Assembly (NCBI GenBank): GCA_903900335.1
Contig: CAIUMP010000050.1
Location: forward strand, 1 to 58,697
DNA: 58,697 bases
DNA from: an uncultured Ignavibacteriota bacterium
GTDB taxonomy: Bacteria > Bacteroidota > Ignavibacteria > Palsa-1295
Direction of reading: 5' to 3'
Positions 18,907 through 58,697 of the stretch are shown one piece after another (positions within the stretch are counted from its first letter, which is position 1; each line of letters opens with the position of its first letter). The translations under genes were made by a program, and so were the position numbers. The notes beneath the pieces are model-generated. The model was not told the origin of the DNA, ran no database searches, and was given only the letters and a program-made list of their open reading frames with translations.

Positions 18907-18961
18907 ATGGCGCGAGTGGCCCGTAGATTGGACATCCTTGCCCGACAAACCCAAAGGGAAG

Positions 18962-19330
18962 TCGGGCAAGGATGCCCGCTCCTTCGATAAGCTCAGGGCA
19001 GGCCCTATGCGAGAATTTTTTCTCAAAAATATTCGGGAAGCTCTTGACTTTGAGTTTTGGATGTGTTATGTTACAGGTAATGAGACGGGCACCTTTTCAA
19101 TTCGGCACACATCCTCCGGAGATCTGGATTCCCGCCCCCGATCGGGTCGAGGGCAGGCTATCTGCGGGAATGAGGGTATGGAGAGGGCGTTCATTAAATG
19201 AACACTCAATTGAGAGAATAGGGGCACCTATGTCAATTAGAAATTTAGAGTTAAGAATTAAGAATTTCGGGGAGGGGACGTCCGTTCATGAACATTTTCC
19301 GGACACACACATCAAGTTTATTTATACAAC
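18962..19330 (+). repeat. dispersed repeat, copy A
   Basis: This region is related to 33853-34193. Shared blocks are GCTCAGGGCAGGC (18991) with the following 110 bases, a 42-bp block at 19188-19229 identical to 34134-34175, and a block around the palindrome GTTCATGAAC (19284-19293). In copy A the 42-bp block interrupts the core, whereas in copy B it follows it, so the units are rearranged. No coding potential holds up. The element contains a promoter-like pair, listed separately. Confidence 0.75.
19044..19072 (+). promoter_or_regulatory. promoter-like sequence in dispersed repeat A
   Basis: TTGACT (19044-19049) and TATGTT (19067-19072) are separated by exactly 17 bases. The same pair, as TTGACA and TATGTT with the same spacing, recurs in copy B. 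Conservation between copies supports function, but this is the E. coli-type consensus, and the housekeeping sigma factor of this group may prefer other motifs. Confidence 0.4.
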
Positions 19331-31478: not shown

Positions 31479-33596
31479 ATGAAGAAGATGCTTCTCACGC
31501 TGTGTGCTGGACTGCTCGCGCTCGCTTCCCTCTTTCCGATAACCGCGATGGCGCAATCGACGGTAGGAAGCCCTAGTGCCATCGGCGATGTTCCGCGTGT
31601 CATAGGCTACCAGGCCGCCCTCTCGGATGCTTCTGGCAAACCTCTGCCTGATGGCGATTACATCCTCGGCGCTGCGCTCTATACAGAAAGCGGCGCTCAT
31701 GCTATCTGGCATGATAACTACCGCGTGCATGTCGCACGAGGTATCGTAAATCTTGCGCTTGGTTCAGGAGCAATTCCGTTTCCGGATATATCGTCCGTGG
31801 GACCTGTTTGGCTTGGACTGCGGATCAATGGAAGTGAAGAGCTTCCACTTTCGCAGTTCACTGCTGCCCCGTATGCGCTCACCGTTCCGAACGGTGCGAT
31901 AACAACGACCAAGATCGCAGACAATGCTGTCACTGCAGAAAAAATAGGGACGGAATATGTTGGTTCTGTTTCGGTAAATGGGCAGAAGGTCTCGAACAAA
32001 GGCGGCGATGTCAACATCGTAACGGATGGCATCGACGCGACGGTCGATCCTACGTCGAACTCGGTTATTTTGCGAGGCGGCGCGGCTAATTCCGCGGCCG
32101 GGACGAAGGGTAGCACAGCGCAGGGAAATTCTACGATCACTGGGACGCTGACCGTCACTTCTTCCGCCAATCTCAATACGCATGATGGGACGACGACACT
32201 CGGAAGCAACAGCGCATCCAATCCCGGCATCCTCGCGCTTCAGCAAGGGACATCCGGCGGACACATGGTGACATTGCAAACGCCTTCAAGCAGCATGAGT
32301 TCGGATGCAACGGTGACACTACCGAACGCCAGCGGCAGACTCCTCACGGACTCGCGCACAATCTCCACCGGCACCGGCCTCTCCGGCGGCGGCGATCTCA
32401 GCGCGGATAGGACGATTACGCTTGCGAATACAGCGGTTACACCCGGCTCCTATACCAATGCGAATATTACCGTGGATGCGCAGGGGCGGCTGACAGCGGC
32501 GGCGAATGGGACGGGAGGCGGCCTCACGAACTTCACCGAATCGCTGACCACCACCGGCCAATACAACACTTCTAACGCTGCGTCGGGGCTTACGGCAACG
32601 AATGTCACGGCTACAAACATCGACGTTGCGCTCTCCCCGAAGGGCACAGGCGCGGTCGAAGCGCAGGTTGCCGATGGTGGTACGGCTGCTGGAAACAAGC
32701 GAGGCGTTTATGCGGTCGATTGGCAAAGGATCAGAGGAGAGAACACACAAGTCGCGAGCGGCACAGTGGCAACTGTCAGTGGTGGGCAGTACAACACCGC
32801 AAGTAACGACTTTACGACAGTCGGTGGCGGCTATGGCAATACGTCAAGCGGAGCCGATGCAACAGTTGCTGGCGGCAGCGCTAACTGGGCAAGTGGTGAT
32901 TATGCAACGGTCGGCGGCGGCGATGACAACACGGCAGGCGGACAACTTGCAAGGGTTGGCGGCGGCTTTGGCAATACGGCAAGTGGCCCCATAGCAACCG
33001 TCGGCGGCGGGCAAGACAACCATGCAGGTGGCGGCGGTGCAACGGTTGGCGGCGGCGACAACAACACGGCAAGCGGCACCGCTGCAACGGTCGGCGGTGG
33101 TGGCAGTAACTCGGCAAGCGGCAATTATTCTGCAATTCCGGGCGGCGAAAACCTAACGCTCGCCGGTTTCGAGGACTTTGGTTTTTTGTCAAATAATCAT
33201 GGTGCCGGTAATGCCATGACAATCTACGCGAACAACACCTCTGTCTTTGGCAATACCGATCTCTGGCTTGCCAATAACAAGAACACAGCGAGTGCGCTTT
33301 ATTTCTTCGCACCCTACAACGCTGCCGGTGCATTCCCGAATGGTGATATGTACGTCGGCTTCAAAGCGGGCGTGGTTACAACTTCGGTCATCTGGACGCT
33401 CCCGCTCGCCGATGGCGCTTCGGGGCAGGCACTAACAACGGACGGTGCAGGCACTCTTAGTTGGACAAAAGTATCACACGCGCCCAATACCTCTACAGCC
33501 CCAGCCTCACCACAGCCCGGCGACTTCTACTTCAATACAGGGGACAACCACTTCTACGGTTACAACGGTACGACCTGGAAGCAGTTGGATAATTAA
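31479..33596 (+). CDS. adhesin/tail-fibre-like secreted protein with head repeats
   Basis: 705 residues with a signal peptide ending AMAQ. Residues 40-150 form a conserved entry domain ([21 protein letters not shown]). Near residue 295 is [15 protein letters not shown], a phrase typical of phage tail-fibre-like proteins. Residues 427-553 hold about eight repeats of 14-16 residues with core ATVGGGxxNTASG, similar to the left-handed beta-roll head repeats of trimeric adhesins. The C-terminal part ends [20 protein letters not shown]. No T9SS domain or membrane anchor is visible, so the export and anchoring route is unclear. Surface attachment is inferred. Confidence 0.7.
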
Positions 33597-33852: not shown

Positions 33853-34193
33853 GTCGGGCAGAGATGCCCGGCCCTTCAACATGCTCAGGGCAGGCTCTAC
33901 GCGAGAAATTTTTCTTAAGAATATTCAGGAAAGCTCTTGACATTGAGTCTTGCATGTGTTATGTTATAGGTAACGAAACAGGCACCTGTTTTCAATAAGC
34001 AATTGAGAATGAAATATTAAGGGTTTTAGGAACGGGTCATCCATTCATGAATATTTTCCAGACACACGCATTTAGTTATTATATACAAATCCATCAAAGG
34101 GAAAACTGCACCATCTTGTTGGGCAGGAATGTCCGTTCATTAAATGAACACTCAATTGAGAGAATAGGGGCACCTGTTTCATTGAGCAATTGA
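33853..34193 (+). repeat. dispersed repeat, copy B
   Basis: Related to 18962-19330. It runs GCTCAGGGCAGGC (33882), then the promoter-like pair, then a block with the palindrome ATTCATGAAT (34043-34052; copy A has GTTCATGAAC), then the 42-bp block 34134-34175 identical to copy A. The change of the outermost palindrome bases from G-C to A-T preserves symmetry. Confidence 0.75.
33937..33965 (+). promoter_or_regulatory. promoter-like sequence in dispersed repeat B
   Basis: TTGACA (33937-33942) and TATGTT (33960-33965) with 17-base spacing, about 420 bases upstream of rpsA on the same strand. It could add transcription of rpsA or of a short RNA from the repeat. Confidence 0.4.
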
Positions 34194-36652: not shown

Positions 36653-36720
36653 GAGGGGGGATAAATTTGTGAGCTATCCGAAATTAGGAAATGGCGTCGA
36701 ATTGTGCTAAGTTTGTAACC

Positions 36721-37656
36721 ATGAAGTATTTCATCAACCATACCATCGTCATTGGGCTGCTCGCGATCATTCTTTTCTCTTCGATTAGCAATTCGGCGTG
36801 TGCAAAACCCACAACCAAGAAGATACAGTATCTAATCAGCACTGTTATCTATTTCGAGTTTAGCAGGATGAGAGGCACACCCCTGCAAGAATTTGATTCT
36901 TTGGAATTCACCTACGACTCTGTTGAGGTTACTAATGCTTTGAAGGCAGGAAACTCGATCTCAATTCATCCGGATAAAGCAAAAAGAGGTTGCTTCATGG
37001 AAATTGATCCAGAAGGTGACACGCAGTTCCACGGGAGCGGTCTGGTCTTTTGGTTTAACGATACGTTACCGCTCCCGGCATGGACTTTAATTTTCACCGA
37101 TAGTCAGACACATTTGATAATTCCTTCCTCAAAGCATAATTATTTCTTTTATGTTGTTCGACTAGATTCGAATCTTCAAATCATTAGTTATCTACCCAAC
37201 ATGATTGGTACCGCAACGTTACCTGGTGGGGACATTCTTATTCGCTTCAGTGACTCTGGCGTTGTCGCCGTTAAATCAAACATCATAGCTGGCTCCCTAA
37301 ATGATAACTGGCATTGGCAAATTTTACGTGAGTACTCTGATATTATCTTTTACCCGATAATCTCATCATCCGTATTCATTCCGAGCAAGGAGGGCGCTAA
37401 CTTGATGGGCACAGGTTTCCCCAACCCCTTCACCACCCACACCACCATCGGCTTCACACTCACGAAACCCGAGGCCGTCAAGCTCCAACTCTTCGACATC
37501 ACCGGCCGCACCCTCCGCGAAGCCGATCGTGAATGCACCGTCGGCACAAACGAGATCGAACTCGACACCCGCGACCTTCCGCCCGGTTGCTACTGGTACC
37601 TCCTCCACGGCGGCGAGTGGGAGCGCAGCGGGAAGGTGGTGAAGATCGAGCCTTGA
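36721..37656 (+). CDS. T9SS-sorted secreted protein of unknown function
   Basis: The ATG at 36721 gives a signal peptide of about 27 residues (ISNSACA) and a 311-residue product. The central 190 residues are beta-rich and unrecognised. The T9SS domain is clear: GFPNPFTTHTTIGF, LFDITGRTLRE, ELDTRDLPPGCYWYLL, and a basic end. Codon use changes from AT-rich in the body to GC-rich in the sorting domain (from about 37400), which suggests the domain was joined by recombination. Its last 170 bases are repeated, damaged, beyond the toxin-antitoxin pair that follows. Confidence 0.75.
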   Translation: MKYFINHTIVIGLLAIILFSSISNSACAKPTTKKIQYLISTVIYFEFSRMRGTPLQEFDSLEFTYDSVEVTNALKAGNSISIHPDKAKRGCFMEIDPEGDTQFHGSGLVFWFNDTLPLPAWTLIFTDSQTHLIIPSSKHNYFFYVVRLDSNLQIISYLPNMIGTATLPGGDILIRFSDSGVVAVKSNIIAGSLNDNWHWQILREYSDIIFYPIISSSVFIPSKEGANLMGTGFPNPFTTHTTIGFTLTKPEAVKLQLFDITGRTLREADRECTVGTNEIELDTRDLPPGCYWYLLHGGEWERSGKVVKIEP

Positions 37657-37701
37657 ATTTCTGTACAGGAATTGTGGTTATGCTTTGGAGGAGAAAATAC
37701 T

Positions 37702-37923
37702 ATGGCACACGACCGAATAACCGCGACCGTTAAGCAGCATTCCATCGCCCTCCCGCCGGGTGTGGATTGGCCGGATGGAATGAAGGTTGATATAGAACCT
37801 TCGAAGAAGAGCGGCATGACCTTGGCTGAGTTGTTCAAGAAGTACGATGGGATCGCGGATGATCTTCCGGAAGATCTCGCAGAGAATCTCGATCATTACT
37901 TGCACGGACATCCGAAGAAGTGA
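37702..37923 (+). CDS. antitoxin of a VapBC-like pair
   Basis: The 73-residue product from the ATG at 37702 has a perfect GGAGGAG eight bases upstream, unusual for this window. The N-terminal half (ITATVKQHSIALPPGVDWPDGMKVDIEP) resembles a swapped-hairpin AbrB-like or DUF104-like DNA-binding fold. The helical tail (MTLAELFKKYDGIADDLPEDL) would wrap the toxin. It overlaps the toxin start by GTGA. It probably represses its own promoter, which is an inference from the family. Confidence 0.7.
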   Translation: MAHDRITATVKQHSIALPPGVDWPDGMKVDIEPSKKSGMTLAELFKKYDGIADDLPEDLAENLDHYLHGHPKK

Positions 37924-38321
37924 AACCCCTCTTTGCGGATGCTTTTTATTTTGTCGCCCGGCTTAACCCGCGCGACCAGCATCACGATCAGGTCTCTCAG
38001 TTCGTAGAATTGTTTGAAGGTGACATCCTCACGACCGATTGGATTTTAATGGAAGTTGCTGATGCACTTGCAAGTTCGAAGATTCATTCTCGTATTCGGG
38101 ATTTTATGCTTGACCTCCGCGACAATTCAAGTTGTGAAATAGTCGAATCGTCTCGCGACCTACTGGATCGAGCGCTGGCTCTCTATGATCGGCATTCGGA
38201 CAAAGGCTGGTCGCTCACCGATTGCACATCTTTCATTGTAATGCGCGACCGAGGCATCACCGAAGCATTGACCGGCGATAAGCATTTCGACCAAGCCGGA
38301 TTTATTCCGTTGTTCAAATAA
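37920..38321 (+). CDS. PIN-domain toxin (VapC-like)
   Basis: 133 residues, the usual size of VapC ribonucleases. The acidic residues expected at a PIN active site are visible: Asp7 (FADAFYF), Glu45 (ILMEVADAL), Asp101 (SLTDCTSF) and Asp120 (LTGDKHF). It starts at a GTG inside the antitoxin stop, so translation is coupled. Likely an RNase inhibited by the upstream antitoxin; the RNA target is unknown. The stop is followed after four bases by a duplicate of the upstream gene's 3' end. Confidence 0.85.
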   Translation: MKPLFADAFYFVARLNPRDQHHDQVSQFVELFEGDILTTDWILMEVADALASSKIHSRIRDFMLDLRDNSSCEIVESSRDLLDRALALYDRHSDKGWSLTDCTSFIVMRDRGITEALTGDKHFDQAGFIPLFK

Positions 38322-38325
38322 TCGG

Positions 38326-38450
38326 CAACTCTTCGATATCACCGGCCCCACCCTCCGCGAAGCCTCGCAAGAATGCACCTCCGGCACAAACGAGATCGAA
38401 CTCCACGGCGGCGAGTGGGAGCGGTGCGGGAAGGTGGTGAATATTGGGGA
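38326..38450 (+). pseudogene. damaged copy of the T9SS sorting-domain 3' end
   Basis: The stretch matches 37486-37650: QLFDITGPTLREASQE aligns with QLFDITGRTLREADRE. A 42-base internal segment is missing at a CTC microhomology, removing the LPPGCYWYLL strand. It has no start codon of its own and no intact 5' part. It places the toxin-antitoxin genes between two copies of the same gene end. Confidence 0.75.
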
Positions 38451-49279: not shown

Positions 49280-49984
49280 TCAGTGAACCACGCTGCCAAC
49301 GCCATCTTCCGTCAAGACGCGTTGAAGATTTCCCTTCTGATTCATATTGAAGACCACGATCGGGAGCTGATTTTCCTGACACAGTGTGATCGCGGTAAGA
49401 TCCATCACACGCAAGTTCTTCTGGAGAACCTCCATATAGCTTATCGCAGGAATGCGAATGGCATTAAGGTTCTTCTCGGGGTCGGAATCATAAATGCCGT
49501 CAACGCGAGTGCCTTTGAAGACGGCATCAGCGTCAATCTCAACGGCGCGAAGAGCCGCCGCGGTGTCCGTAGTGAAGAACGGATTGCCCGTTCCGCAGCC
49601 GAAAATGACCACTCTCCCCTTCTCCAGATGCCGGACTGCCTTACGACCAATGAACGGCTCCGCAAACTCGCTCATCGTGACAGCAGACATCAGCCGCGTG
49701 TACAACCCCTTCGCCTCGATCGCATTCTGGAGCGCCAACGCATTGATCATCGTTGCGAGCATCCCCATTTGGTCGCCCTGGATGCGGCTGATACCATCGA
49801 TGCTGCCGGAGACGCCCCGATAGATATTGCCGCCACCGACGACAATGCCGATCTCCACGCCAAGCGCCGCGCTCGCGACTACGTCGAGGGCAAATTGCTC
49901 CAGCATTTTTGGGTCAATGCCATACTCGCGCTCGCCCATGAGGGCTTCGCCGGAGAGTTTTAGGAGAATGCGTTTATATTTCAT
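49280..49984 (-). CDS. pyrH: UMP kinase
   Basis: The enzyme phosphorylates UMP to UDP; it belongs to the amino-acid-kinase fold and is a hexamer. 234 residues from the ATG at 49984 (longer starts are unlikely, since family members begin [14 protein letters not shown]). [17 protein letters not shown], and [14 protein letters not shown] are the nucleotide-binding and catalytic blocks. It is the first gene of the pyrH-frr pair after the accessory block that separates it from tsf. No Shine-Dalgarno is evident. Confidence 0.95.
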
Positions 49985-50192
49985 GTTGCAAGAAGCCAAA
50001 TCTCCAATTCTGTGGATAGCTTGGGGGGTGAACGAACTCCAAACTTCTTTCGAGCCGCAACGGGACCACAAATGTAAGGGAAACACGTGAAAAATCTAGC
50101 GCATCGAACGCCGCTGCGGGGTTTATTGCGCAAAGCGGATAAGTTACGGATTGTTGTATATTTGCAACTGCCTTCTCGTTCGATCGATTGAA

Positions 50193-50744
50193 ATGCCCCA
50201 GGAAGTACGAATATTTGAGCTTGCCTCGCTCATGGATGCAATTAAAGCAGAAAGCCCGAACACGGATGACTCCCGCGTTCGCGATGCCGCTCAATTTGCG
50301 TACGAATGGTTGCTACTGCACATTTCAATCGATCAGACACCCGCGAGCGAGATTTTAAGCGCTGGGGTTCGACAGGGTTTGAACTATCTACGCCGTGAGA
50401 CACGGTTAGCTCGGAAACACCACACGCTCGACGAGACCAAAGATAAACTGCCTGTGAATGATGGCGGCTCTAACTCCTTTGAGAGACAAAATGCGCTGGA
50501 AACACTACTGCTTTTACTCCCCCTAAACGTGCGACCTATCGTCGAAGCACATTACATTGAAGGGATGAAGTATGAGGAACTCGTTGAACAATTTGGAAAG
50601 TCTGCCGACGCGTTGGAACGGCAAGTTCTTCGGGAGCTCGATAAGCTCCGCCGAAAGATACCAATGATTGAGTGGGAAACCTGGGGGGGGGGGGGGCAAC
50701 GAAAACCACCCAAAAGGCCTCGAAAACACCAGCCAAGAAAATAA
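50193..50744 (+). CDS. sigma-70 region 4-like protein with G14 tract near the 3' end
   Basis: 183 residues from the ATG at 50193. Residues about 108-160 have the sigma-70 region 4 shape: LLLLPLNVRPIVEAHYIEGM, then the helix-turn-helix KYEELVEQFGKSADALERQVLREL. A recognisable region 2 is not obvious, so this may be a divergent ECF-type sigma factor or a related regulator. The last 20 codons follow fourteen G residues (50683-50696). All three frames after the tract are open for about 15-23 codons, giving different basic or polar tails. Divergent from pyrH. Confidence 0.6.
   Translation: MPQEVRIFELASLMDAIKAESPNTDDSRVRDAAQFAYEWLLLHISIDQTPASEILSAGVRQGLNYLRRETRLARKHHTLDETKDKLPVNDGGSNSFERQNALETLLLLLPLNVRPIVEAHYIEGMKYEELVEQFGKSADALERQVLRELDKLRRKIPMIEWETWGGGGQRKPPKRPRKHQPRK
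50683..50696 (+). repeat. homopolymeric G14 tract
   Basis: Fourteen G residues inside the 3' end of the sigma-like gene. Such tracts slip during replication and are classical phase-variation switches; base-calling error is also likely at this length. Confidence 0.85.
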
Positions 50745-50816
50745 TTAAGTAAAAATGAGAAATGCTTGTCGGAAAGGGGCGGAGAAGATGGCTATTGTAT
50801 TAGAGGCCTGAAGCTC

Positions 50817-50914
50817 ATCTGTGGAGGGTCTTTAAAACGCGGAAGCCCGATGGATAAGATCAGGCTCTCCGCAGATTCCTAAGCCCTCAGATCGGGACTT
50901 AAACCGACTGAGGG
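50817..50914 (+). promoter_or_regulatory. structured leader upstream of the small secreted protein
   Basis: Two stem-loops are visible. In the first, ATCTGTGGAG (50817-50826) pairs with CTCCGCAGAT (50867-50876) with one G-U, and an inner AGCC/GGCT. In the second, CCCTCAG (50884-50890) pairs with CTGAGGG (50908-50914), with inner TCGG/CCGA. They end 24 bases before the ATG. No terminator T-run is present. It could be a riboswitch-like leader or a small RNA; this is inferred from fold only. Confidence 0.45.
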
Positions 50915-50938
50915 TAGTATCATTATTTCTCAACTACG

Positions 50939-51250
50939 ATGAAGACATTTTTGTTCGCATTAGCTACATTCTCTGTAGCCGTATTCTGTGTTCCCAAGCC
51001 GGTTTCAAGTCATTGGGAACCTGGCAAATGGTCGGGACCAAACGCCACAGGTAATCGTGTGCAAACAACAGACGACGGTGGTAACGGGGACAAGATAACG
51101 GATTGTAACCCAAATCCAACCATTTGGTGCCAGTACATCGACTGTAATGGAAATCTCTGGCTCGGGGATGAGTCCACGAGCGGAGGACCTACGGGACCGG
51201 GTTCTGGCGACCCATATTTCGCGCAGGTAACGGCGACACCTGTTCCCTAA
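50939..51250 (+). CDS. small secreted protein with three mature Cys
   Basis: 103 residues with a signal peptide of about 24 residues. The mature part is rich in Gly, Asn, Asp and Trp and has Cys56, Cys64 and Cys69 (DCNPNPTIWCQYIDCNGNLWLG), followed by a Gly/Pro-rich tail. No family is recognised. It is followed by a propeller lipoprotein and a thioredoxin-like gene on the same strand. That neighbourhood recalls the small NVEALA-type peptide loci of Bacteroidota, but the leader sequence here lacks that motif. Confidence 0.55.
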   Translation: MKTFLFALATFSVAVFCVPKPVSSHWEPGKWSGPNATGNRVQTTDDGGNGDKITDCNPNPTIWCQYIDCNGNLWLGDESTSGGPTGPGSGDPYFAQVTATPVP

Positions 51251-51319
51251 TTCAATGAGGGGGCTGGTCACTCTTTGAGCAGCCCTCTACAATCAGGTTG
51301 TTATTTTCTTAGCAATAGT

Positions 51320-52555
51320 ATGGGACTTAGAATTGGAGTAACATTTCTAATCGGATTAGTAATGGTGGGCTGTGGCAGTCAGCACGCACCCGAGAGAAAT
51401 CAGGTAATGCGACTGAGCAAGACACAACAGATCACTCTGAAAGAAGAAGGAGATTCTGCAATATCCGTCGTCTCATCAGCGGCAATTTCTCCGAACGGAA
51501 ACTTCTTAGTTATCACGGATTCTCACGCAGGGAATGTAGCTGTTTTCAGAGTGAGCGAGGGTACTCTCAGGAATTTCATATCAACTAGTTCAGCCATTAC
51601 AGACAGCCTTGCATTCTCAGGTGTTTCCAGTTGGGCAACAGGTAGCTATTCGAGCTTAGCGGATACCAGACGGAATAACCCCCAGGCGCTAAAAGAGTTG
51701 CGCAATAGCTACGCTCAAGCTGTCTTTGAGTCAGACTCGACGCTAGCAATACTCGGCGATGTGCGTGCATTGTTTTTGCCTCAAGGTCTCCAAGGTGACC
51801 TATCATGCTATATTGCTCACAGGATGTTCATTGAACGAATGAATCTTAGTGGGCAACCTTCGCGTGTGATCTTCCCAGATGAGAAAAGGCCAGAAACGAC
51901 GTTCGCACGCAGGGGAATCCTCCTTCTCGATGGAAGGGATGGGGGCTATATCGTTAGCGTTGGAAATCAAGATGCAGTGTCGCGAGGACGCTCTGATTCC
52001 GCTCCCACTATTGCGCTGTATGATTTTACCGGCAAGAGGAAATCAAATCTTTCTTTTATCCCTGAAGAATTTCAGCGTTCATCCCTAGGATACAACTACC
52101 TTCAGCCTGTCGGAGCTGTCGACAGCTCAGGCGAGATCGTAATTGGTTATGCACTGACGTCGAAATTCACTGAGTTGAAATCTGCAAAGACCATTGAGAT
52201 TCCAGCGATCACTAGTTCTAACAAGGCATTTTTTTCTTCCGTTACTAGCAAATCCAAAGGAGGCGTAAAACAATTCGATGTAGATCTTACCAATAGCTCC
52301 TGTATTCGAAGTGTGGAGGTGACGGAGCGAGGATACTTTTCATTCATTGTTCAACATGGAACTGGAGACGAGGCAAAAAGGGAAGCGATTGAGTTTTCTC
52401 CCAGCGGTGACCTTGTTCGCGAAGCTGCCTTTCCAGATTTAACCACTCTCGGTTCGATCAGGCATATTTCTTATCATGCTTCTCTAAAGGGATTCCTCTG
52501 TTTGTCAATTTCAAGAGAAGGTAAGCTGATAATGAGCATTTTTCGGTGGAGCTAA
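51320..52555 (+). CDS. propeller-like lipoprotein
   Basis: 411 residues from the ATG at 51320, with lipobox VMVGC. The mature part starts with strands typical of six-bladed beta-propellers (AAISPNGNFLVITDSHAGNVAVFRVSEG) and continues with blades of about 50 residues (GYIVSVGN, APTIALYDFTGK, YFSFIVQHGTGDEAKREAIEFSPSGDLVREAAF). It resembles the six-bladed-propeller lipoproteins found near small exported peptides in Bacteroidota. The next gene starts one base after the stop. Role unknown; ligand or peptide binding at the outer membrane is possible. Confidence 0.6.
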   Translation: MGLRIGVTFLIGLVMVGCGSQHAPERNQVMRLSKTQQITLKEEGDSAISVVSSAAISPNGNFLVITDSHAGNVAVFRVSEGTLRNFISTSSAITDSLAFSGVSSWATGSYSSLADTRRNNPQALKELRNSYAQAVFESDSTLAILGDVRALFLPQGLQGDLSCYIAHRMFIERMNLSGQPSRVIFPDEKRPETTFARRGILLLDGRDGGYIVSVGNQDAVSRGRSDSAPTIALYDFTGKRKSNLSFIPEEFQRSSLGYNYLQPVGAVDSSGEIVIGYALTSKFTELKSAKTIEIPAITSSNKAFFSSVTSKSKGGVKQFDVDLTNSSCIRSVEVTERGYFSFIVQHGTGDEAKREAIEFSPSGDLVREAAFPDLTTLGSIRHISYHASLKGFLCLSISREGKLIMSIFRWS

Positions 52556-52556
52556 C

Positions 52557-53051
52557 ATGACTAAGAACTACCTAACACTTCCTTTTCTGGTGCTGTGCCG
52601 ATTGCTTCTTCAAACCGGGATAGATACTGCCTTTGCTCAGTATCCTCCTCCCCGTCTGCCATTGAATATCGAACAATCAATGCATCTTAGGCATGGCGAA
52701 CGTGCCCTCATACTCTTTGTGAATCCGGGCACATGCTCAGCATGCACAAGTCGTGAGTGTGGGACTGCAGCGCTACTAAGGGCTGAAGGCTATAAGTCTA
52801 CCAGAATTCGTCTTGTTGCCGCAGTCCAAGGGGATCGAGAAGTAGCTTTGCACATCTTTAAACGAACCTACGGATGGGATGAGGAGGCCATTCTCGATAG
52901 TTCTGCTTCTCTCCGCGCAAAACTGTTACTGCCCAAGAATACCCGGGTTGCTGTCTATGGCAGCGACCATCATTTGGCAGGCACCGTTAGTGCGGGAACG
53001 AATGACCTAATCGATTGGTCGCAAGTCCAAAATATTTTGAGATCGCACTGA
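52557..53051 (+). CDS. exported thioredoxin-fold-like protein
   Basis: 164 residues with a hydrophobic N-terminus ending AFAQ near residue 28. LILFVNPGTCSACTSRECG holds a CxxC (Cys60, Ser, Ala, Cys63) after a beta strand, as in thioredoxin-like oxidoreductases, with an extra Cys68. The following RLVAAVQGDREVALHIFKRTYGWDE and RVAVYGSDHHLAGTVS segments fit the rest of the fold. A redox partner for the Cys-bearing neighbour is a reasonable inference. It is cotranscribed with the lipoprotein (one base between). Confidence 0.6.
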   Translation: MTKNYLTLPFLVLCRLLLQTGIDTAFAQYPPPRLPLNIEQSMHLRHGERALILFVNPGTCSACTSRECGTAALLRAEGYKSTRIRLVAAVQGDREVALHIFKRTYGWDEEAILDSSASLRAKLLLPKNTRVAVYGSDHHLAGTVSAGTNDLIDWSQVQNILRSH

Positions 53052-53151
53052 ACAACGGTCTTATCCCTGCGCCCCTGTCACCGTGATGCCAACGCACCAG
53101 GATGGCGGAGTTTGGATAGATGGGCAGTGCTATTCAGTAATGTGTAATTAG
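53041..53151 (+). pseudogene. remnant of a Cys-rich secreted protein C-terminus
   Basis: After the thioredoxin-like gene, one frame (no normal start) reads PCAPVTVMPTHQDGGVWI, then DGQCYSVMCN and a TAG at 53149-53151. The end of the Cys-rich gene at 14008-14681 reads IPCAEAPQDLFSWLPG, ICYSIGHCGGW. The shared pattern PCA...W-x-x-G-x-CYS-x(2-3)-C and its place just before a paralogue of the same T9SS propeller gene suggest a decayed copy. A GTG at 53083 could start a short product, but this is unlikely. Confidence 0.45.
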
Positions 53152-53165
53152 GTTCTGATATAGGG

Positions 53166-54528
53166 ATGCAAACCATAGTCACTTTCACAACTATTTGTGT
53201 GCTCTTGTGCCTGACCTTCGTGTCAGGCGCAAGAGCGCAATATCATTGGCATGTCACCCACGATGCTCAGTTGATCAACAACGGGAAGGCACAATACGAA
53301 TATCTATTCACCGCTGTTGATTGCTCAGGCGATGTCTGTACTGCTGCTGGGGTAGTTCTTGATACCTCCATTCATGCAATTGGTCGTAGCCGTGTAATGT
53401 TTTTTCGAAGTTCCGATCAGGGTAGAAGTTGGGTTGAGCAAGATCCACAGTTACCACCCGGGAGGGGGGACAAAGATCGCATCATCAATCTTGTTCAGCA
53501 GATCGATTCATTGAATGCTGTTGCATTCTCTGATTCAGGTCTCGTCCTGCGCACCTTCGATGGTGGACTTAACTGGGTGCGTCAGGACCTGCATACACTC
53601 GAATATGTTGATGACGTCAATTTTTCTGATCCATTAACAGGAATTGCCATTACGGATCGTGTGATTTCTGACAGTACCATGAGGGCATGTCGGATTCTCA
53701 CTACGACCGATGGTGGCCACAATTGGAAACAGGCGGCGTTCTAGCCACAAACATTTGCACTCTCGTGCCGTTCATTGGGCGGTGGTAAATTTTGGGTCAT
53801 CTCCTACGCTTCCGGGCCGGTTTACAAGACCTCCGATACCTGGGCATCGGTCGACTCCACGCCAGAGATACTTAGTCACGAACCAAGCGTGATCCTCGGA
53901 TATTTTGGGTATAAAGGTGAGGATACATTATTCAGCTACACCTCACGTCAGGAGGGTTCCAAGGTTGTTACACGCCTATTTAGGAGCCTCGATGGTGGCA
54001 CCGTCTGGGACGAAATACATTTGTCCATTGATAGTGTCGTTAGTCCGGGAGCGTATCAGTTGGCGCTTTCATCGCCTAATAACACCCCGACTTTCATGGG
54101 AGGAGGAGTGGCCGGTGGTCGAAGCATATTACGCAGCGAAGATCACGGGATGAGTTGGACGCTCGACTCACTCGCGATCGACACAGCAGTACCATTTTAC
54201 AAGATACCCGCACTTGCAACTTCCAGCCACGGCTATGCAGTCGCGGTCCTAGAAAAGGGGATTCTTGCACGTGGAGAACCGCTAAAGCTGGGTGTGGAGT
54301 CTTACGAGCAAATTGCTTGGAACACGCGCATGTACCCGAATCCAACGACAGACCGGATAACCATCCGATCGGTCGATCAATCGCGCCCTGTCTACTTACA
54401 AACTCAATGAACGCGGTGAACTGAGCCTAAATGTCTCGGCGCTTGCACGCGGGATTTACGCTGTCCTACTCGACCACGACGGAAAGTTGCTCCCAGTGGG
54501 GAAAGTGGCTCTCGTCCCAAGGGAGTAG
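53166..54528 (+). pseudogene. broken paralogue of the YCF48-like T9SS protein at 14675-16069
   Basis: A normal start and signal peptide (ARAQ) and propeller repeats (VLRTFDGGLNWVRQ, ILTTTDGGHNWKQ) are followed by TAG at 53742-53744, in a place where the paralogue has Gln (its codon is CAA): the paralogue reads VPFQAWTTLASC, here AAF-stop-PQTFALSC. The same frame continues to 54410. About 32 bases of the sorting domain are missing near 54390, shifting the frame; the end (NERGELSLNVSALARGIY, LLPVGKVAL) is in another frame, closing at 54528. So there are two independent lesions. The product would be truncated and unsorted. Confidence 0.8.
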
Positions 54529-54559
54529 CTACTTCAAGGCATTCTCTCGTTTTTTCCTT

Positions 54560-54640
54560 CCTCAACTGCATCCTCACAAATCCGGAGAGGGTCACGCCCG
54601 CACCAACTTCCTTCAGAAGATCGTTGATGGTCTTCGGGGC
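54560..54640 (-). pseudogene. second extra copy of the tsf 3' end (divergent)
   Basis: On the minus strand the frame reads PKTINDLLKEVGAGVTLSGF, then VRMQL, aligning with SKTITDLLKEVGAGVTVTGF of tsf. It continues past the normal stop as RKEKTREC. It is same-oriented to tsf and further from it than the 54673 copy. No upstream part of tsf accompanies it. Confidence 0.75.
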
Positions 54641-54672
54641 AGTTCAATCGCCGCCCCGGTTACACTACATTC

Positions 54673-54766
54673 CTACTTCGATTCCCCCAACTGCATCCGC
54701 ACAAACCCGGTCACCGTCACGCCCGCGCCGGCTTCCTTGAGGAGATCGGTAATCGTCTTCGAGGCG
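54673..54766 (-). pseudogene. first extra copy of the tsf 3' end (94 bases)
   Basis: These 94 bases align without gaps to 55228-55321, the last 30 codons plus stop of tsf, with seven differences by eye. Five are synonymous, one swaps TAA for TAG, and one gives Val to Ala. Homology stops abruptly upstream at the GCC codon. The pattern of substitutions is that of a sequence once translated, not of neutral decay. Confidence 0.8.
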
Positions 54767-55156
54767 CGAGCAACGCGGCATTCCTAAATCGACAATAGTT
54801 GGCAGTTCCAGCCACATTAGTTATTATTAATTACATTATTTGCGCCACCTGGAACTTCTGAGCCTATTATTGTGTTCTTTTATGTTGCTTTTGCTCTCGA
54901 CTTGTATGTGGCGGCATAATGGCCTCTGGAGTACACGAACTGCCATATCCCTGCCTGTAAGACGCGGAAGGTCGAGATGATAACGTTAAAAGCCCAAGGG
55001 CACACCGCTTATTGAAGCATTGTCAGGCCCGAGTCCGTTCGGCGTGTTGAGCCGTCCTAGGCCATTCCTTTGGAGACATAACATATCTCGTTCCTTGAAA
55101 TTCTATTGTGTCCCGAAGCAGTGTACGATGCCATGGGACTAACGAATCAGCTCCGC
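54767..55156. other. intergenic region between tsf tail copies and tsf
   Basis: No gene is seen in these 390 bases. The first part is AT-rich (TTATTATTAATTACATTATT). No integrase or insertion sequence remains. The terminator of tsf lies at its right edge. Confidence 0.4.
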
Positions 55157-55194
55157 AAAAAAAAAAGCGGCGCTATGAACAATAGCACCGCTTT
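55157..55194 (-). terminator. intrinsic terminator of tsf
   Basis: Minus strand: AAAGCGGTGCTA pairs with TAGCGCCGCTTT (one G-U), then ten T residues. A textbook Rho-independent terminator 34 bases after the tsf stop. Confidence 0.9.
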
Positions 55195-55227
55195 CAAATT
55201 ATTCAGACGAAAGGTCTCGTTGCGTTC

Positions 55228-56070
55228 TTACTTCGATTCCCCCAACTGCATCCTGACAAACCCGGTCACCGTCACGCCCGCGCCGACTTCCTTCAGAAGA
55301 TCGGTGATCGTCTTCGAGGCGTCCTTTACGAAGCTCTGTTCGAGCAGGCAATTCTCCTGGAAGTACTTGTTCAGCTTGCCCTTGGCAATATTGTCGATCA
55401 TCTCTTCCTTCTTGCCCTCGTTGCGGAGCTGCGTGCGATAGATGTCGAGTTCACGCTCGATCTGATCTGGCGGCGTAGAGTCGCGGCTGAGCGCGATGGG
55501 GTTCATCGCGGCGATCTGCATGGCGATGTCGCGTCCGAGCGACGGATGAGCGTCGGTACCGGATACGGCAACAAGCACTCCCAGCTTTGCACCTGGATGG
55601 ATGTAGCTGGTCACAAAACCGTTCGGCTCCGAGAGCATCTCGAAGCGGCGCGCATCAAGCTTCTCGCCCATGCGACCCGTCTGCGCACCGACCTCTTCCG
55701 AGATCGTCGCACCATTGGAAAGCTTAGACATGAGGAATTCCTCGTGGGAGTTCGGACGAGCTGTGAGCGCTGCGTCTGCAATGTCCTGCGCAAAACGAAT
55801 GAATGACTCATTGCGCGCAACGAAGTCGGTCTCCGAATTGACTTCTGCGATGACCGCGTGCTTGTTGTCAATAGCTACGCTTGCGACGATGGCGCCTTCC
55901 TTGGCCTCACGATCGGAGCGCTTTGCAGCCGAGGCAGCACCCTTCTTGCGAAGAATATCAATGGCCTTCTGCTCATCGCCACCCGCTTCTTCGAGTGCCT
56001 TCTTACAATCTCCCATACCTGCGCCAGTCTTGTCGCGCAGTTGACGTACTTGCTCTGCTGAAATTGCCAT
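55228..56070 (-). CDS. tsf: translation elongation factor Ts
   Basis: EF-Ts exchanges GDP on EF-Tu. 280 residues, normal length. The UBA-like N-terminus carries the first signature QLRDKTGAGMGDCKKALEEAGG (residues 9-30), and SETDFVARNESF near 79 is the second signature. The C-terminal block ends KTITDLLKEVGAGVTVTGF, VRMQLGESK. It follows rpsB by 73 bases in the same orientation. Two extra copies of its last 30 codons lie downstream. Confidence 0.96.
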   Translation of the reverse strand: MAISAEQVRQLRDKTGAGMGDCKKALEEAGGDEQKAIDILRKKGAASAAKRSDREAKEGAIVASVAIDNKHAVIAEVNSETDFVARNESFIRFAQDIADAALTARPNSHEEFLMSKLSNGATISEEVGAQTGRMGEKLDARRFEMLSEPNGFVTSYIHPGAKLGVLVAVSGTDAHPSLGRDIAMQIAAMNPIALSRDSTPPDQIERELDIYRTQLRNEGKKEEMIDNIAKGKLNKYFQENCLLEQSFVKDASKTITDLLKEVGAGVTVTGFVRMQLGESK

Positions 56071-56108
56071 AACTAAAATACTAAATGCTAATTCTTACCA
56101 ATACTACA

Positions 56109-56142
56109 CCTCTCTCCACAAAAAGGAAGAGAGGCTGGGGAG
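56109..56142. repeat. palindromic CCTCTCTCC...GGCTGGGGAGG element
   Basis: CCTCTCTCC and GGAAGAGAGG flank a short A-rich loop, then CTGGGGAGGTT, between rpsB and tsf. It is related to the two elements between rpsI and rpsB. Confidence 0.6.
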
Positions 56143-56143
56143 G

Positions 56144-56983
56144 TTATTGTGCAGCGGTGTTCGCTAGAACTGGCTGCTGGCCAGCGGCCTCGAAGTCGGC
56201 GGAAGAGATCTCCACGCGACGTCCACGGCGGACGAGGTTTGTGCCCTCTGTCGCACGCTCTTCTCTTCCTTCCATCGCGCCTTCGTCGAGGCGACGTGAG
56301 CGCGCTGCAGCGCGGCCGTTGTTGATCGCATCGGCGAACGCGTGCACGAAAAGCTGCACTGAACGCAATGCATCATCATTTGCTGGGATCGGGTAGTCCA
56401 CAACATCCGGATCAACGTTGGTATCAACGAGCGCGAAGATCGGAATACCCAGCACACGTGCCTCCTTGACGGCGATGTGCTCCTTCTTGATGTCAATAAT
56501 GATCATCGCTGAAGGCAGACCGCGCATCTCGACGATACCACCGAGTACGCTTGTGAGCTTGATCTTCTCGCGGGAGAACTCGAGACGCTCCTTCTTGGTG
56601 AAGTTGTCGATGGAGCCATCTTCTTCCATCTTCTCGATCTGCTGCAAACGCTTGAGCGACTTGCGGATCGTGGCAAAATTGGTGAGCATTCCGCCCGGCC
56701 AGCGATCGATAGCGAAGAACTGACCCGAACGCTCGGCTTCTTCTTTCACCATTGCACGCAGCTGCTTCTTCGTGGCGACGAAGAGGAATTTCTTCCCTTC
56801 GGCGGCCATCTTTTCAGCGGCTTCCAATGCATCTTCGGCGAGAGCCTGCGTCTTCTTAAGATCGATGATGTGGATGCCGTTGCGTTCCATGAAGATGTAC
56901 GGTTTCATCTTCGGATTCCAGCGGCGGGTAAGATGCCCAAAGTGAGCACCTGAGGCGAGGAGGTCTTCTAAGCTGAGTCTCAT
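56144..56983 (-). CDS. rpsB: 30S ribosomal protein S2
   Basis: 279 residues from the ATG at 56983 (in-frame upstream sequence is repeat-derived and not S2). Typical S2 blocks: [20 protein letters not shown] near the start, [35 protein letters not shown], and [28 protein letters not shown]. The C-terminal 45 residues are an Ala/Arg/Glu-rich extension without a known role. No Shine-Dalgarno precedes the start. It lies between rpsI and tsf. Confidence 0.95.
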
Positions 56984-57107
56984 ATCAATTGTGCGCACCA
57001 ATGGCACGCGATTGTTTTGGTTGATGTCTCTACGGAGCCTTTGCTGCAATTCGCCGTGGCGAACACCATGCAGAAATGGCGGAGCCCGTATCTGTTTTGA
57101 AATCTTG

Positions 57108-57212
57108 CTCCCTCTCTCCCAAAGGGAGAGGGGGCTGGGGAGGAGAGGCAGCCATTCGAACAACGTCGCGGCTCTGCCTCTCCCCAACCCCTCTCCCACT
57201 GGGAGAGGGGCT
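57108..57212. repeat. pair of inverted CCTCTCCC palindromic elements
   Basis: The left unit, CCCTCTCTCCC/GGGAGAGGG with GCTGGGGAGGAGAGGCAGC (57111-57152), faces an inverted right unit, CCCCTCTCCCAC/GTGGGAGAGGGG-like (57174-57211). Together they can form a very long stem between rpsI and rpsB. This GC-rich element type is common as a dispersed intergenic repeat in many bacteria. Confidence 0.7.
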
Positions 57213-57217
57213 TAAAA

Positions 57218-57622
57218 TTATCTCTTCGAGAACTGGAAGCGCTTACGTGCCTTTGGCTGACCAGATTTCTTGCGCTCGACCATTCTTGGGTCGCGTGTCA
57301 TCAAATCATCACCTCGGAGAAGCGGGCGATTCTCTTCGTTCATATCTGCGAGCGCACGAGCAATACCCAACCGGACTGCGCCGGCCTGACCCGTGGTACC
57401 GCCGCCAGCAACGCGAGCTGATACGACAAAGCTGCCAAGCGTATTCGTGATTTTGAACGGGCGATTCACGTCGTCGCGATGCAATTGGTTCGGGAAGAAG
57501 TTTTCGAATGTACGACCATTAATGGTAATGGTCGCTTCCTGACCGGAAGTCACAGGTGTGAGATAAACGCGCGCTACCGATTCCTTGCGACGACCTACGT
57601 AAATTTCTGCTTGCTTTGCCAT
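57218..57622 (-). CDS. rpsI: 30S ribosomal protein S9
   Basis: 134 residues. Diagnostic pieces: GRRKESVARVYL near the N-terminus, GGGTTGQAGAVRLGIARAL in the middle, DPRMVERKKSGQPKARKRFQFSKR at the end, where the last Arg reaches the P-site tRNA. ATG start. It follows rplM by 36 bases, the usual arrangement. Confidence 0.96.
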   Translation of the reverse strand: MAKQAEIYVGRRKESVARVYLTPVTSGQEATITINGRTFENFFPNQLHRDDVNRPFKITNTLGSFVVSARVAGGGTTGQAGAVRLGIARALADMNEENRPLLRGDDLMTRDPRMVERKKSGQPKARKRFQFSKR

Positions 57623-57658
57623 TCGGGAAGTGCTTATGCTAAATTCGTAAAATTGTTA

Positions 57659-58117
57659 TTATGCGAGATCGATCGCGACTGGATTCTGTGCCTCATGCTC
57701 GTGGTTCGGACCAGCGTAGACCTTGAGCTTCTTGATCGTCGTGCGGCCAAGCGAATTCTTCGGGAGCATACCCTTCACCGCCTCGGTGAGGATGCGATCC
57801 GGATGCTTTGCAAGCAGGTCCTTGAACTTCTCATGACGCGCGCCACCTGGATAGAGCGTATTATGGTAATACTCCTTCTGCTCCATACGCTTGCCGGTCA
57901 TCTTGATTTTCTCAACATTGACGACAACCACAAAATCGCCGGTATCAACGTTCGGCGAAAAAGTAGGCTTATGCTTACCGCGAAGGATCGAGGCCACGCG
58001 GGTAGCCAGGCGGCCGACGGTCTTATCCGTTGCATCCACTAAGTGCCACTTGCGCACCACTTCTTCTTGCTTTGTTGCTCGCGTCCGGAGGACGTTCTCG
58101 TATTTCTTCGTTGCCAC
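57659..58117 (-). CDS. rplM: 50S ribosomal protein L13
   Basis: 152 residues from the GTG at 58117, chosen because AAAGG sits about eight bases upstream and upstream residues are not L13. Blocks: KWHLVDATDKTVGRLATRVASILRGKHKPTF, DTGDFVVVVNVEKIKMTGKRMEQKEYYHNT, YPGG, and KGMLPKNSLGR. First gene of the rplM-rpsI-rpsB-tsf cluster. Confidence 0.95.
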   Translation of the reverse strand: MATKKYENVLRTRATKQEEVVRKWHLVDATDKTVGRLATRVASILRGKHKPTFSPNVDTGDFVVVVNVEKIKMTGKRMEQKEYYHNTLYPGGARHEKFKDLLAKHPDRILTEAVKGMLPKNSLGRTTIKKLKVYAGPNHEHEAQNPVAIDLA

Positions 58118-58510
58118 GGCGTAACCTTTTTCGACTAATTTTGGGTAATAAATAGCAATCCGCCATGGCGGACTCCTTTTCGGCGGCTCAATAAGCAGAC
58201 ATGGCCCCTGAAAGTTCCGAAAAAGGGAGATGTCCGAAAATCTACCAGACAACCTCCCCGTCCTCCAGCACTCCTCGGACGTTTCTTAGCTGTCAGAGTG
58301 AATACCAAAACCTCCCTCCGCCGACAGACCCGGACCAGCGCGAGCGGCCATTGTTGTGTGATGTTAATTCGCGATTCATGAACTTCTCATATAAATCAAC
58401 AACTTACAGCGTTTTGTCTATATGACAGAAAGCGCTTTCCATAAATTTTTTGCGGTTCCCGAACCGACCAGGAATTCGGTAGAAAGCGCAGAATTTCTCC
58501 CCGACTCCCC
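58118..58510. promoter_or_regulatory. rplM upstream region
   Basis: No convincing gene was found in these 393 bases. The region should hold the promoter of the ribosomal-protein cluster on the minus strand. TATATGAG-type AT-rich sequence near 58390 is a possible -10, with no firm -35 partner. Confidence 0.3.
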
Positions 58511-58568
58511 GTGTAGCACAGACTTTAGTCTGTGACCCCCTATGCGCAGACTGAAGTCCGCGCTACAC
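58511..58568. repeat. inverted repeat GTGTAGC...GCTACAC
   Basis: GTGTAGCACAGACTTTAGTC and GACTGAAGTCCGCGCTACAC pair imperfectly around a short spacer (TGTGACCCCCTATGCGCA region). It is a dispersed-repeat type hairpin lying before the last gene's end on the minus strand. Confidence 0.6.
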
Positions 58569-58578
58569 GTCACTACCA

Positions 58579-58697
58579 TCATCTCCCCACCACAACCCGC
58601 CGCGTCTCAACAAAACCGCCCGAACTCACACGCAGATAATACACCCCATCCGGCAAGGAGGAGACCTCCAGCGCCGCCCTCTGGCCGGAAACCTCCC
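58579..58697 (-). CDS. C-terminal end of another T9SS-sorted protein (5' part outside window)
   Basis: On the minus strand the frame, open to the window edge, reads GQRAALEVSSLPDGVYYLRV, then SSGGFVETRRVVVGR and TGA at 58581-58579. The LPDGVYYLRV strand and basic end are those of a T9SS type A sorting domain. Nothing of the cargo part is visible. Confidence 0.7.
   Translation of the reverse strand, partial: EVSGQRAALEVSSLPDGVYYLRVSSGGFVETRRVVVGR

Follow-up and report, generated by a model that had tools for sequence, protein, structure and literature searches.

Why does the 3' end of an essential translation-factor gene stand three times on the same strand within less than 1 kb of DNA, when only one of the copies completes a gene? 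The window analyzed here, 58,697 nucleotides in length, comprises all of contig G000:C50, one of the 62 into which the 4.0-Mb genome is assembled, and carries on its minus strand an intact tsf gene for EF-Ts (55228-56070; 280 aa; PF00889, E 1e-67). The last 94 nt of this gene (tail A, 55228-55321) recur downstream in the same orientation, once as tail B (54673-54766, 93% identical to A), with reading frame and TAG stop intact and no gene ahead, and again as the decayed tail C (54560-54640, 85% identical to A over 81 nt). A repeat search returned three in-register copies (55225-55321; 54670-54766, 93% identical; 54545-54641, 72%, this last value taken against the reference copy over 97 nt), and BLAST of the tail against the complete genome found the same three places only (E 4e-45 for A, 2e-35 for B and 3e-20 for C), both in agreement with the original prediction that the end of tsf recurs here in one close and one more diverged copy. 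The extra tails are not chance matches, as the two translated hits outside the gene reach E values of 5e-11 and 1e-6 and no extras occur elsewhere in the class, this genome being alone in having them among 149. A scan of 80 wider loci for tail repeats gave four matches, all short (15-23 nt) and located in loci of gammaproteobacteria and planctomycetes. The window contains no tRNA target, and an RNA element was rejected as a candidate because all Rfam matches across 49900-58697 fall below gathering scores, these being microRNA-type models at a palindrome at 57.1 kb and one frameshift-element model.

Read downstream from tsf, tails A and B are separated by a geneless interval of about 460 bp (54767-55227), which holds a terminator-like hairpin following the gene (about 55158-55196) and also, at about 54841-55142, a degenerate member of a dispersed repeat found across the genus, with matches in G000:C41, in G006:C339 and in more than 10 places in G003. 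This intergenic repeat, about 200 bp long and opening with the inverted repeat AGTCCTG...CAGGACT, is well conserved in G003 (loci L065, L069 and L159-L168) and degenerate both at 54841-55142 and at G000:C41:113109. Between B and C lie 32 bp of unique sequence (54641-54672). Beyond C follow an accessory block on the plus strand (50151-54530) and, on the minus strand, pyrH (49280-49987), the ancestral downstream neighbor of tsf, whose true start we place near 49987 because alignments with its relatives begin at residue 31-36 of the open reading frame at 49280-50086.

The boundaries and substitutions of B and C carry most of the information on their origin. Both begin at one tsf codon (GCC TCG AAG ACG...), within 1 nt of each other; in the 60 nt preceding this shared start they match tsf at 16/60 and 15/60 positions, which is chance level, and one another at 22/60, at or near background, while their 3' limits lie at or before the stop codon. 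With two copies to go by, this common 5' start suggests a fixed crossover point. Tail B differs from A at 7/94 positions, comprising five silent codons, a TAA/TAG exchange and one Val/Ala replacement, and our recount thus matches the seven differences, six of them synonymous or stop-to-stop, that had been reported initially; in a neutral simulation by random substitution of A, no more than one replacement codon among six changes arose with P = 0.007. B further carries Ala (GCC) and CGG where relatives have mostly Ala and always CGN, and Val and AGG are common to A and C. A 78-nt tail tree separates A and C from B and the relatives at 83 and sets the three tails together apart from the relatives at 80, values that, like the silent test, are modest because the tails span only 78-94 nt. 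Given the silent bias and the ancestral Ala and CGG that it carries, B probably diverged as part of a functioning tsf gene from outside the A/C lineage and not as a decaying local copy. C differs from A by four amino-acid changes and has lost the original stop; on moderate evidence from these 78-94 nt, it probably represents the local tail type in decayed form. The earlier proposal that the tails derive from other functional tsf genes is thereby supported for B, while A and C share the Val and AGG type. Under mosaicism the tail should be unusually near to relatives when compared with the body of the gene, and for this genome it is not.

Taken together, we consider it probable that B and C are old tsf 3' ends displaced by insertions that carried replacement tails. 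Insertions would have struck one point, some 94 nt ahead of the last base of the tsf stop codon, in two rounds, each incoming DNA bringing its own working tsf tail with extra DNA behind it; the incoming tail would have completed the gene, such that essential EF-Ts was never lost, and the previous tail would have been left at the far end of the insert and pushed downstream. Two fixed-point rounds of this kind would explain the common start, the silent divergence of B and the decay of C. We infer both the two events and their order: C would be the local tail, B would have arrived from a diverged lineage, and A, from a lineage near C, would be the latest arrival, with the inserts either having later shrunk to 460 and 32 bp or always having been that short. 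The tiny size of these geneless inserts speaks against the displacement model, as does the clustering of all three tails against distant relatives; the recurrence of a similar geometry at 36691-38444, described below, speaks for it.

Comparison of tsf-pyrH spacing across relatives, the check originally suggested, does reveal both empty and occupied sites. The two genes lie about 0.1 kb apart in G003, G005, G008, G010 and G012, the gap is filled with 0.9-2.9 kb of unrelated material in G004, G006, G007 and G009, and in G001 and G002 pyrH is on a different contig from tsf. The filled gaps contain no tail copies above shuffles. All of these comparisons are distant: the six other genus members compared are 70-75% identical in the tsf body at the DNA level, for which reason the donor of the tails cannot be named, and the nearest named EF-Ts records, from Candidatus Kapaibacterium, are 73% and 69% identical. 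Tails branching with this genome's own tsf had been put forward as an outcome that would count against integration, and the tails do cluster with it, but with relatives at such distances this grouping is not decisive. Further observations concern the neighborhood of tsf in individual relatives. The G006 gap (L036) holds a small pair of open reading frames with a PIN domain (PF01850, E 4e-5) and no tail copy, so that toxin-antitoxin-like cargo is found beside tsf in a relative too. In G001 a convergent guaA gene abuts tsf, and in G002 (L040) the last 21 nt of guaA alone directly follow tsf and then give way to unrelated DNA, resembling the edge of an island that entered at the 3' end of guaA.

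The accessory block between C and pyrH is real in its own right. It has a GC content of mostly 0.45-0.51, as opposed to 0.51-0.57 in the flanks, and by gene family it comprises an ECF-sigma-like gene, secreted or propeller-like genes and a BNR gene that is interrupted and ends in a sorting-domain-like part. When two genes of the block were searched against relatives, they gave no more than weak or single matches, the best at 40% in G006. The BNR-type secreted gene (53166-54530) is broken into several frames and is either a pseudogene or the product of a sequence error. Delivery of the 50-54 kb block by the tail events, as first proposed, is not supported, since the block lies outside the tail-bounded intervals: C adjoins it without enclosing it, and no remnant of a tail was detected on its pyrH side; a block brought in between two tails was rejected on these grounds.

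A second tail-bracketed insertion lies elsewhere in the same window, at 37486-38444. There, a gene with a type IX secretion sorting domain (36691-37656) is followed by a small unassigned open reading frame (37672-37923) and a PIN-domain one (37920-38321; PF01850, E 1.7e-7), which together form a toxin-antitoxin-like pair, and then by a partial copy of the sorting-domain gene's own tail (38326-38444) with a 42-bp internal deletion. The geometry of 36691-38444 is similar to the one at tsf. Another contig of the genome (G000:C51, L189) carries a further sorting-domain gene, its tail 89% similar, and then homologous small and PIN genes; this unit is 71% identical to that of the window over 901 bp, tail included, and has no second tail. 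Sorting-domain tails occur repeatedly in this genome, and this second case is therefore simply explained by ordinary homologous recombination from one such tail to another. That the lineage recurrently gains small cargo, toxin-antitoxin pairs included, at gene 3' ends by way of a homologous replacement tail and with no dedicated recombinase, leaving tail arrays of which two would fall in a 59-kb window, is a conjecture to which we give little credence at present. The window also holds two similar intergenic stretches, 18961-19245 and 33853-34191, which lie 14.9 kb from each other, match piecewise at 79-91% identity and each have the palindromic GTTCATTAAATGAAC, as well as a tandem array of open-frame-like 45-bp units (32769-33128).

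Could the tsf tails have arisen more simply? Had the gene's own tail been copied in tandem and the copies left to drift, all three would be expected to cluster against the relatives compared, as they do at 80 in the tail tree, and the Val and AGG that C has in common with A would follow naturally. Local duplication, however, falls short at several points, and we regard it as improbable: B is free of decay and has the Ala and CGN arginine codon of the relatives, the A-B changes carry the silent bias noted above, C, though by descent the nearer to A, has decayed further, a combination not expected from one drift clock, and unrelated DNA precedes the shared start in both copies. The silent differences are also what one would expect of strain variants, and tails of coexisting strains might have been joined if this is a metagenome assembly, as the nearest named records are; but the run identical between A and B at the start of B measures only 15 bases, short for a graph join, no run of N marks that start, and the decay of C is more than the working gene of any strain could bear, leaving an assembly artefact very unlikely. 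With displacement by incoming replacement tails as the preferred reading, the remaining alternative concerns how the joints were made.

For the joining step we lean only slightly toward site-specific integration, either in the manner of prophage e14 or as a decayed remnant of an integrative and conjugative element (ICE); it and recombination anchored by homology share the displacement core almost equally. The fixed crossover point speaks for it as far as two copies allow, and the arrangement itself, a gene body completed by an incoming tail with the old tail displaced in the same orientation, is that of an e14-type insertion. An integrase is not seen in or near the element or anywhere else in the genome beyond a XerC/XerD-like pair, the sole recombinases found by PF00589, one of which passes the XerD cut-off while the other matches XerC best and stays below its cut-off; the resolvase family PF00239 has no match in the genome. 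Searches of phages, plasmids and viral contigs by tail peptide or pattern yielded no kindred element, integrated or free, that shares the tail and no tsf-targeting carrier, and the other genomes of the class have no extra tails. The tsf tail as an attachment site for phages or plasmids was discarded, with no phage match at all; a single plasmid match (E 0.2), on a 2.83-Mb record lacking annotation at that place, is probably an ordinary tsf; one viral-contig pattern match is read in another frame than the 403-aa open reading frame that holds it and is due to chance, and a second tail pattern had no match among viral contigs. A literature search for tsf as an integration site found no report. 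Of the successive integrations originally envisaged, then, displaced and replacement tails stand, and the lost integrase is not borne out. In the homology-facilitated alternative, DNA from a related cell would have paired with tsf at one end and been joined illegitimately inside the resident tail. This is a version of the same displacement core, with which its probability overlaps, and we rate it as less likely than not, though hardly behind site-specific integration. It requires no integrase, of which the genome has none beyond the XerC/XerD-like pair, and no later deletions to make short geneless inserts, it would accommodate a second tail-bracketed insertion with a toxin-antitoxin-like pair and no integrase in the same window, and it has a published model with displaced 3' ends (PMC5361080). 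The homology end fits; two joins at one point go against expectation, as the version does not predict the common start of B and C, and the chance of independent joints coinciding so closely is by our own estimate only about 1% if joints may fall at any position of the final few hundred nt.

However the joints were made, the tsf tail array is a real, rare and readable scar. If displacement is correct, essential tsf would be a place where arriving DNA exchanges the end of the gene and yet leaves it whole, and the old tsf ends, in their array, would record the order of events. With two tail-bracketed insertions in one window, the lineage may also be suited to asking how toxin-antitoxin pairs and other small cargo spread without visible recombinases.

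Among known systems, Escherichia coli prophage e14 sits inside the 3' end of icd and supplies a replacement tail, with the original icd end of about 163 bp persisting as a pseudogene on the far side of the prophage (PMC6379469). The tsf locus resembles it in a probable insertion in the 3' end of a housekeeping gene, a replacement tail and an old tail at the far end, and differs in its target and in its geneless intervals of 460 and 32 bp, compared with a 15-kb prophage. Decayed ICE remnants flanked by att sites are known as CIMEs, for example at fda of Streptococcus thermophilus. The tsf array shares with these the tandem placement of tail-flanked intervals at a gene 3' end, devoid of genes including those for recombination, and the tails could be putative att sites; unlike for CIMEs, no related intact ICE or integrase was found for the tsf tails. 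In type VI effector and Rhs loci, displaced 3' ends have been attributed to a proposed homology-facilitated illegitimate recombination (PMC5361080). As at tsf, an incoming 3' module replaces the gene end, the old end is shifted downstream, arrays form and no integrase is known; whereas those modules are functionally different and selected, the tsf tails are equivalent and the gene encodes a translation factor. The displaced tails at tsf are probably scars of a known kind of event on a new target gene.
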